From Synechococcus lacustris (lineage in GTDB: Bacteria > Cyanobacteriota > Cyanobacteriia > PCC-6307 > Cyanobiaceae), in contig CAJAQB010000019.1 in assembly GCA_903943975.1 (NCBI GenBank), forward strand, positions 124,001-188,000: a DNA stretch of 64,000 nucleotides, written 5' to 3'. Under the pieces are notes generated by a model. The model was given only the letters and a program-made list of their open reading frames with translations, made no database searches and was not told the DNA's origin. Position numbers and translations under genes: made by a program. Each line of letters starts with the position of its first letter. The first letter of the stretch is position 1. This document shows positions 6,479 to 55,528 of this stretch, piece by piece.

Positions 6479-7629
6479 TCCAGGGGGAACCCCGGGGGGC
6501 AGAGGCTGCCCAGGAGGAACTAAAGCGGCTGGGGGAACAGGGGGAGGCGGCAGTCCAGCGCCTGTATCCCATGCTGGCCAGTTACCTAGACGACCTGCGA
6601 ACTCACCTGGAGGCGAACCTGCTCCAGGCGGTTTTTCAGTTGGCTACCCAGCTTTACCCCCAACAATTCACCGCCCTCTCCGATGGCGAGCGCCAGGCCC
6701 TACGCCAACGCTTGCATCGCCTTTGCCAACGCTGCGGCAGCTTGCTCACCATTGAGCAGTTGTTGCAGCTAGCCCTGCGGCTGGAGCAGCACGACCCCAG
6801 CCCCCGGCCGCTCGAGCCCCATAGCGGCGAACTAGAAGTAGTGGAAGCCGAGGAGCCTTCGCTCCCCCCCGGCTCCATTGCCCTGGAGCTGGAAACCCCG
6901 CCGTTGCTGGGAAGCTTTGATCCCTGGTTGTTTAGTGGTCACCCGCCGGAGGAATCTGGAGACGATCCTGAAGACGAGGAAGACGATCAAGACGAAGTGG
7001 ATATTGATCCCATCGAAGGGCGGCAAGAGGAAGAATTCGGAGCCGAGGAAAACCAACGGCAGGAGTTAGATATCCGTTCCCGGGAAGCATTTGCTTTGCT
7101 CCAGGATCTGATGGGGGGCGGAGAGCTCCAAGCCAGCCCAACCCTGGAGGCGGAGGGTTTCACAGTGGCCTTCCCAATGCCGCGCCATCCCTTGGCGCTG
7201 CACCGTTGGCTCCAGGGCTGGGATAAGGCCCTCACCCGGCGGCTGCGCAACCTCAGCCACGCCGTCAATGTGGAACTGCTGCGTTTCGGTCTTACCCGCA
7301 GCCTGATGCCGATGGCGTTGCTGGATGCCGTGCTGGAGGGCCAGGCAGATGCCCAGTCGGCCCCGCCAAATCTGCTGAGCCTGAGCCTGCCACTGGGGGC
7401 CAATGGCATGGAGCGCGACTTCAACCTGCATGCGGTGCTGTTACGCAGCAGCGATTTTGAATATTTACGGCCGCCCCTGCGCCGCCGCCGGGCCCAGATT
7501 CGCCAACTAGGCAAAAACCTGCTCAAAATGGCGCGCAGACAGCATCATTGGCAGCAACGGCTAGCCATTCGCCAGGCTGAACAACAGTGGTTGGAGGACA
7601 ACGATCAACCCCTGAACCCCGAGCCCTGA
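6475..7629 (+). CDS. acidic conserved hypothetical protein between tsf and recG
   Basis: 384-aa protein of unknown function starting at TTG 6475, which overlaps the tsf stop as TTGA. The N-terminal ~120 residues look helical ([20 protein letters not shown], then a Cys-containing helical stretch). A low-complexity acidic linker follows at about 155-200, dominated by Asp/Glu. The C-terminal domain (about 215-384) has [20 protein letters not shown] and ends in a strongly basic helix, [20 protein letters not shown]. The acidic middle and basic end suggest contact with a nucleic acid or a basic partner, which is inference. I recall an ORF in this position in related picocyanobacteria. The next in-frame ATG is at 6571, so a shorter form is possible. 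Confidence 0.75.
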
Positions 7630-29449: not shown

Positions 29450-29995
29450 ATGACTTTGCTGATCGCCAGTGGGGCTGGATTTAGCGGCTGGAACAGCCTC
29501 AACGACACGATCATGGGCGGCCGCAGCCAGGGCAGCTGCGGGGTAAGTAGCGACGGTTTGCTGATGGAAGCGCTGGTGGTAGCTGAGGGCGGCGGCTTTG
29601 TGAGTTGCCGCTCCCCCCGTTGGCAGCCCCCCCTCGATCTCTCGGCTGCGAAAGCATTGGTCTTGGAGTTGGAGGGGGACGGTCGCCGCTACAAGTTGGC
29701 AGTGGCCCCTGGGGACCTGGCCGGGCGCCTGGGGGAACTTATCCCAGGGGGATTGCGCTGGGTTACCGATTTCGACACCGAAGCGGAGGGCATCACCAGG
29801 GTCACGATTCCCTTTGAGCAGCTGCGGCCCACGGTGCGGGCCACCCCTGTTTCCTTGCCGCTGCGCTTTGACCCCTCCCGCGTCAGTCAGCTGCAGATCC
29901 TGCATTCCCGCTTCAGCGATGCTGGCGGCGAAAACCCTGGCTTTCGGGCCGGCCCCCTGCGGCTGTTGTTGCGCCGCATCGAGGCGGTCTCGTGA
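29450..29995 (+). CDS. CIA30-family protein
   Basis: 181-aa protein of the CIA30 family (complex I intermediate-associated protein 30 homologues), which in cyanobacteria is linked with NDH-1 or photosynthetic assembly but not firmly assigned. Start ATG 29450, 4 nt after the pgl stop. The family signature is visible: SGWNSLNDTIMGGRSQGSC near the N-terminus, GGGFVSCRSPRW, and the C-terminal IPFEQLRPTVRA and SRFSDAGGENPGFRAGPLRL galactose-binding-like strands. The frame is open upstream to 29309 within pgl, rejected because the family starts here. Confidence 0.88.
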   Translation: MTLLIASGAGFSGWNSLNDTIMGGRSQGSCGVSSDGLLMEALVVAEGGGFVSCRSPRWQPPLDLSAAKALVLELEGDGRRYKLAVAPGDLAGRLGELIPGGLRWVTDFDTEAEGITRVTIPFEQLRPTVRATPVSLPLRFDPSRVSQLQILHSRFSDAGGENPGFRAGPLRLLLRRIEAVS

Positions 29996-30005
29996 AGGGG
30001 CGCCA

Positions 30006-30057
30006 ATGAGCAGCGAAAGGCTATGAGCAGCAAAAGCCGATGAGAGGCAACGGATGA
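30006..30057 (+). promoter_or_regulatory. tandem ATGA-linked mini-ORF ladder before the 30054 gene
   Basis: Two 17-nt repeats beginning ATGAGCAGC (30006-30022, 30023-30039) and a third partial unit (30040-30053) create three mini-ORFs: MSSERL (30006-30026), MSSKSR (30023-30043) and MRGNG (30040-30057). Each stop overlaps the next ATG as ATGA, the last being the start of the 132-aa gene at 30054. The arrangement could couple translation from CIA30 or act as a uORF series. Function is inference. Confidence 0.55.
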
Positions 30058-30452
30058 CGGACGACTGGTTGCCCACGGCCGATCAGCCCGAGGCCCAGGC
30101 GGAGCTCTGCCAGCAGATCTGTAGGGCAGCGGATCTCAGCCGTCCAGGCCTCAAGCATGCCGCCCTGCCCATGGAGCAGGAGCCCCGCAGCTGGAGCCTG
30201 CGGCTGGAGGTGCGCGATGGCCAGGGCCAACGGCTGCAGCGGGAAGATCTGGAGCTGGAGCTTTATGGCTCGGCCGTGGACCCATCCCTGCAATTGGGCT
30301 GGCTATTTCAACAAGAGCAACCGCTGCTCTGGCAGGGCCGTCACCCGGTGTGGATGGACGCCAGCAGCGGCGCCCGCTGCGAACGGCCGGAGGGCGGTAT
30401 GGCCTTGGAAACCCTGGCCAGGCGGCTGCGGGCCCAGCTGGTGGGGGGCTAA
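30054..30452 (+). CDS. conserved hypothetical protein, 132 aa
   Basis: Small soluble protein without signal peptide or membrane span. It reads MTDDWLPTADQPEAQAELCQ, a helical N-terminal part, and then strand-rich segments SWSLRLEVRDGQGQRLQRED, LGWLFQQEQPLLWQGRHPVW and a final helix ALETLARRLRAQLVGG. It resembles small unassigned picocyanobacterial proteins; I do not recognise a domain. Its start is the end of the mini-ORF ladder. It converges on ilvD with 17 nt between the stops. Confidence 0.7.
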   Translation: MTDDWLPTADQPEAQAELCQQICRAADLSRPGLKHAALPMEQEPRSWSLRLEVRDGQGQRLQREDLELELYGSAVDPSLQLGWLFQQEQPLLWQGRHPVWMDASSGARCERPEGGMALETLARRLRAQLVGG

Positions 30453-55435: not shown

Positions 55436-55486
55436 ATGCGCTGGCCGCAGCGGGGCCATGGGGATTGGGGTCACCGGACAATAGGG

Positions 55487-55528
55487 ACTAGGGGCAATGG
55501 ACTACGGGCAATGGACAACGGGCAATAG
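55487..55528 (+). repeat. 14-nt tandem repeat, three copies
   Basis: ACTAGGGGCAATGG, ACTACGGGCAATGG and ACAACGGGCAATAG follow each other without spacer; a more degenerate copy may precede at 55473-55486. Not an integer multiple of three and not in a gene. Confidence 0.75.

Follow-up and report, generated by a model that had tools for sequence, protein, structure and literature searches.

The locus described here raises the question of whether a string of very short reading frames, lying between a CIA30-domain gene and the conserved gene of a 132-aa protein in Synechococcus lacustris, relays ribosomes from the first gene to the second, or is a by-product of the way in which DNA arose between them. 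The locus lies in the window, the 64,000-nt stretch of DNA that was analysed. The original prediction, made from the letters of the window, placed mini-ORFs at ATG 30006, ATG 30023 and ATG 30040, linked by ATGA overlaps to the gene ATG at 30054, and this was found to be exact in the sequence. The three mini-ORFs hold, but the start of the chain has to be moved upstream, since a frame opening at GTG 29992 adds an earlier link to CIA30. With this frame, which reads GTG AAG GGG CGC CAA TGA, four mini-ORFs (5, 6, 6 and 5 codons) and five 4-nt overlaps form an unbroken bridge from CIA30 to the 132-aa gene, advancing in steps of 14, 17, 17 and 14 nt. All five junctions within 29992-30057 have the form NTGA, the links among mini-ORFs 1 to 3 and the gene being ATGA, and scripts tracing stop/start overlaps recovered the same four-mini-ORF chain. 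The coordinates are collected in Table 1, where the start of the CIA30 gene at 29450 is the analyst's choice.

Table 1. Features of the junction between the CIA30-domain gene and the 132-aa gene, in window coordinates
Feature	Position	Strand	Evidence
CIA30-domain gene, 181 aa, upstream partner	29450..29995	+	Translation; Pfam PF08547, E 6.6e-34
CIA30 stop codon TGA, within GTGA	29993-29995	+	Sequence
Mini-ORF 0: GTG 29992, 5 codons, TGA 30007-30009 overlapping ATG 30006	29992..30009	+	
Mini-ORF 1: ATG 30006, 6 codons, TGA 30024-30026 overlapping ATG 30023	30006..30026	+	
Mini-ORF 2: ATG 30023, 6 codons, TGA 30041-30043 overlapping ATG 30040	30023..30043	+	
Mini-ORF 3: ATG 30040, 5 codons, TGA 30055-30057 overlapping gene ATG 30054	30040..30057	+	
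58-nt lineage-specific spacer, CIA30 stop to 132-aa gene start	29996..30053	+	Absent from 9/9 near relatives
Two-copy 17-nt tandem repeat, 82% identical	30006..30039	+	Repeat search, Tandem Repeats Finder, shuffles
132-aa conserved gene, downstream partner	30054..30452	+	Translation; near-relative N-termini (MxxxWLP) support the start

The junction was read in 88 genomes, mostly the best-scoring ones, comprising 29 loci (L002-L030) and 59 of 60 further stretches; the remaining stretch, L087, was dropped from the count as no CIA30 match was found in it. Nine named loci (L031-L039) were also read and were excluded from the counts, most of them repeating genomes already included. Nine of the 29 loci (L002-L010), which are 56-63% identical by tblastn, have alignable N-termini and represent three genera including the window's own, were taken as near relatives. 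Another locus, L094, was left out of this set, its 57% identity coming from an incomplete match in which the first 47 residues are not covered; its nearest start is at -8. In all nine near relatives the two genes meet without a spacer, the CIA30 stop and the gene start sharing 1 nt in eight (TAATG or TGATG) and 4 nt in one (ATGA). Using a permissive measure in which any in-frame ATG, GTG or TTG counts, the nearest start was at or before +4 in 76 of the 88 relatives, at +28 or beyond in three and at +58 or beyond in one. A single mini-ORF chained to an in-frame start at +5 to +60 was seen in four of the 88 (L058, L067, L077 and L097), and no chain of more than one mini-ORF was found in any of them within 75 nt past the CIA30 stop.

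A BLAST search of 400 family genomes with the 64-nt stretch gave matches at E <= 0.01 in four, the own genome and three others. The matches in the three others lie elsewhere, with neither CIA30 nor the 132-aa gene nearby, so that only the own genome matches at the locus. Likewise, the 17/17/14 NTGA pattern was present in one of 300 genomes, the own, and the backward control gave one match, in another genome. Because the near relatives overlap directly and the 400-genome search found nothing else at the locus, the two genes most likely overlapped directly, stop on start, in the ancestor, and among the genomes seen the spacer is lineage-specific, the chain being known from a single genome without a strain-level relative. 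Comparison with relatives had been set beforehand as the observation that could refute the original prediction; the repeats were absent from all nine near loci, which leaves a conserved relay unsupported.

The 132-aa gene itself is widely conserved, a search of 300 family genomes finding it matched in 266, and its named relatives come from Synechococcus and Prochlorococcus records, RCC307 among them. Its protein found no match passing the cut-off in Pfam, NCBIfam or PHROGs, and nothing scored below E 0.4 when solved structures were searched with its profile. The structural model is confident (mean pLDDT 92.2) and has a helix/antiparallel-sheet/helix arrangement. Since no clear counterpart to this model was found in the PDB, Foldseek returning nothing at E <= 0.001 and the highest VIA-align Z, 6.0, being tied, no fold family is claimed. 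In three relatives (L016, L020 and L027) the stop-to-stop frame holding the homologue extends over 834, 829 and 818 codons, which may reflect a fusion, or a frame left open by chance where the DNA is rich in G+C.

The pattern had originally been described as two 17-nt repeats followed by a third, shortened unit, and replication slippage had been offered as its source. For the two 17-nt units this is borne out: they are 82% identical, the likeness of their tails beyond NTGA was equalled by 3 of 5000 shuffles, and Tandem Repeats Finder reports 2.5 copies of 17 nt at 30002-30044, reaching 5 nt into the last unit. The third unit, however, could not be detected as a copy, since 655 of 5000 shuffles aligned its 14-nt unit's tail equally well with the second 17-nt unit, and slippage or duplication is not borne out for it. 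In the shuffle comparison the first unit, mini-ORF 0, resembled none of the others. The duplication that is proven from the sequence thus covers just one of the four mini-ORFs. Local similarity of the spacer to CIA30, to the 132-aa gene and to 5 kb on either side never rose above that of shuffles, which counts against duplication of the junction itself as its source. Elsewhere in the window a 14-nt unit, GGACTACGGGCAAT, stands in three copies head to tail at 55485-55526, with 92% matches; they sit in a stretch without an ORF of at least 80 aa, about 50 nt past a T run that looks terminator-like by eye.

The geometry of such a duplication was examined by simulation. When a segment beginning at the NTGA was duplicated in silico at 54 direct -4 overlaps of this genome, a one-mini-ORF relay appeared in all 54 at lengths of 11, 14, 17, 20, 23, 26 and 29 nt; every remaining length between 9 and 30 nt gave 0 of 54. 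A duplication of 3k+2 nt at an NTGA overlap leaves both proteins intact in these simulations. It follows from the 3k+2 rule that an accident of one length in three can make a coupled junction longer and yet leave its chain whole.

Where ribosomes might enter was judged from duplex energies with an assumed anti-SD, ACCUCCUUU, since a search of the own genome for the 16S 3' end pattern gave no match. The energies obtained with it place SD-like sites before GTG 29992 (CGAGGCGG, -6.5 kcal/mol) and before ATG 30006 (UGAAGGGGC, -7.5 kcal/mol, spacing 4), and a further one, AGAGGC, inside mini-ORF 3 (-5.8 kcal/mol, spacing 5 from the gene ATG 30054). For comparison, 300 random ATGs of the window gave a median of -2.4 kcal/mol, with 13% reaching -5.8 and 5% reaching -7.5. 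Against this background no SD-like site was found at ATG 30023 or at ATG 30040, both of which gave -1.9 kcal/mol. The nine near relatives range from no SD-like site (L010) to -9.3 kcal/mol (L002 and L003). Going by these energies, ribosomes could enter at 29992, at 30006 and again at 30054, and the middle starts at 30023 and 30040 would depend mainly on reinitiating ribosomes.

The reading that we prefer, and to which we give an even chance of being right as a whole, is that duplication at the junction produced a spacer which relays itself, mainly as a tolerated by-product. An ancestral direct overlap, such as the near relatives have, would have coupled CIA30 to the 132-aa gene. Between the two genes 58 nt would then have arisen in this lineage, including the 17-nt tandem duplication that the repeat analysis detects. 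Wherever a segment of 3k+2 nt starting from an NTGA overlap was duplicated, a mini-ORF joining both overlaps would result and the proteins would remain unaltered. A ribosome ending CIA30 at the GTGA could restart there and reach ATG 30054 by way of the four mini-ORFs. Some probably take this route, their number falling with every step, and the 132-aa gene would also be entered from its own SD-like AGAGGC, alongside the relay. Positive selection for the relay is unproven; we see it chiefly as something that duplication at the coupled junction left behind and that was tolerated.

What a bare gap of this length would do to coupling can be judged from published pairs. At +38 nt, two E. coli pairs had lost 80-90% of their coupling and a third had lost all of it (PMC10666635). 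A review (PMC12548453) cites another study in which coupling was undiminished up to +25 nt, and a phage pair in which it persisted at +62 nt. As coupling can fall steeply with distance, a bare 58-nt gap would be expected to weaken or end it, and the chain of overlaps could keep part of the coupling, with loss at each step. The suggestion that the repeats form a relay from the CIA30 gene to the 132-aa gene fares unevenly: the geometry is complete and the near relatives overlap directly, but the repeats are absent from relatives. A bolder version, in which this is a natural multi-step reinitiation relay whose four mini-ORFs replaced a lost overlap, and in which NTGA duplication is a general way for junctions to grow while relaying themselves, we consider unlikely.

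The chain could instead be pure coincidence, the spacer being neutral, the gene translated alone from its AGAGGC-ATG 30054 and the mini-ORFs unused. We think this possible, though we incline against it. Of 200,000 dinucleotide shuffles of the 58-nt spacer, the odds of which presume that no unit was copied, 14 contained the full four-mini-ORF chain and 15,963 some chain of one mini-ORF; with one 17-nt copy removed before shuffling, a three-mini-ORF chain arose in 262 of 200,000. Shuffling the two outer links alone was uninformative, their 10-nt stretches holding no T and hence no stop. The rarity of the full chain speaks against coincidence, as does the direct overlap of CIA30 and the 132-aa gene in the near relatives. 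On the other side, once the ATGA motifs are given, the chain needs only a 3k+2 spacing (about 1/3 each, and for the spacings together an estimated 1 in 27 or so) and the lack of an in-frame stop, so that its excess over chance is modest. Moreover, since the chain was picked from a scan, the shuffle odds do not prove selection. The SD-like site ahead of the 132-aa gene, the relatives read, none of which goes beyond a one-mini-ORF chain, and the single genome of 300 with the 17/17/14 pattern are likewise what coincidence would lead one to expect.

The same rival was weighed on a sample of the genome, 464 kb made up of 20 stretches and the window, in which crude hexamer gene calls gave 431 genes. 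There were 255 co-directional pairs, 62 of them with a -4 or -1 overlap. Among the 137 spacers of 5-150 nt, chains with one mini-ORF were found three times, with two once and with four once, the last being this junction. Shuffles (1000 for each of the 137 spacers) lead one to expect 3.3 chains with one mini-ORF, 0.40 with two and 0.003 with three, and a chain of four was never produced in 1000 shuffles of each spacer. The shorter chains agree with coincidence; the four-mini-ORF chain speaks against it. Without the lower gap limit, seven one-mini-ORF chains were counted, four of them with gaps below 5 nt and hence outside the 137. A genome-wide habit of relaying was considered and rejected, chains of one or two mini-ORFs being about as common as in shuffles. 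The sample also holds a second chained junction, on the minus strand of another stretch of the own genome (L121, C19:248001-268000; 6783-6813 of its reverse complement). Here two 6-codon mini-ORFs linked by TTGA span 30 nt between two called genes, and the chain ends in GTGA at a GTG start; it is the one such chain seen against the 0.40 expected in the sample.

A relay kept by selection, in which the frames were retained or tuned after the spacer opened and reinitiation sets the ratio of the two proteins, appears to us rather improbable. The complete chain of five overlaps, the direct overlap in all nine near relatives, the strong SD-like site at ATG 30006, of a strength attained by 5% of the 300 random ATGs, and the SD-like site within mini-ORF 3 ahead of the gene are all in keeping with it. 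The middle starts, however, are without SD-like sites, the chain occurs in one genome in which shorter chains show no clear excess, and duplication needs no selection to produce this geometry at every third length.

Short ORFs upstream of a gene also call to mind a leader-peptide attenuator or a ribosome-slowing device, and slowing of ribosomes was part of the original prediction. This is very unlikely and finds no support: the stretch folds no better than its shuffles (z 0.34), has no Rfam match at the gathering score and no terminator-like site, and is not present in the relatives read. Searches at the junction for RNA structure, RNA families, promoters and terminators found nothing.

Least credible of all, and largely refuted, is the insertion of a mobile or dispersed MIRU-like repeat at the overlap: as with MIRUs, which insert at start codons so that their ORF meets the gene in a -4 overlap (PMC12548453), there is extra DNA at a stop/start junction and its ORFs are joined by NTGA, but exact matches to the 14-nt repeat core number two in the genome and lie at the junction, with four one-mismatch matches elsewhere, and BLAST of the 64-nt stretch against the own genome gave five weak partial matches of 14-26 nt (best E 0.02). 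As candidates for a dispersed repeat, eight other BLAST matches (L107-L111 and L132-L134) were rejected, as neither CIA30 nor the 132-aa protein is encoded near them and they have at most one -4 link; five of the eight were also inspected by eye.

The comparison with MIRUs bears on what kind of junction this is. At senX3-regX3 the spacer holds, depending on the strain, three 77-bp MIRUs or two of 77 bp and one of 53 bp (PMC4213456). The likeness consists in units that NTGA joins where a stop meets a start, though here just two of four are demonstrably alike. The units differ in size, being 14-17 nt long against 77 and 53 bp. MIRUs are also known by their dispersed copies, and the own genome has no exact core away from the junction and no second array among its matches to the 64-nt stretch. 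RTGA-coupled small ORFs are over-represented in mycobacteria (PMC4633059).

Two further systems invite comparison. In a bicistronic design (BCD) leader, a short ORF with an internal SD has its stop overlapping the start of the gene. Mini-ORF 3 resembles such a leader in this feature, as it holds AGAGGC (-5.8 kcal/mol) and ends in an ATGA shared with the gene ATG. The difference is that four leaders stand here in series in place of one, and that they are natural, intergenic and preceded by an upstream gene. Termination-reinitiation (TeRe), a mechanism established for overlapping genes, couples pairs that overlap by -4 or -1; such pairs are similar in that all junctions of the chain are -4 and the direct junctions of the near relatives -1 or -4. 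A known TeRe pair, however, has one junction, whereas the chain has five in series over 58 nt with frames of 5-6 codons, and as regards the proximity that defines such pairs, CIA30 and the 132-aa gene stand 58 nt apart while in 9/9 near relatives they overlap. In its way of working the chain is like MIRUs and bicistronic leaders, yet it fails as a member of the MIRUs on size and dispersal. Apart from the accounts of MIRUs, no natural chain of several mini-ORFs was found in the accessible portions of the open-access literature searched, and what was looked up there on CIA30 added nothing useful.

The chain is real, complete, apparently young and of uncertain use. Judged by its sequence, the junction would be one form of a type already known. 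Should ribosomes indeed walk along it, nature would have supplied a compact test of the number of termination-reinitiation steps that a ribosome can take, and of whether a chain of mini-ORFs can restore coupling across distances at which it otherwise weakens or vanishes. The geometry of duplication would, in addition, suggest how tandem repeats such as MIRUs can grow harmlessly in coupled operons.
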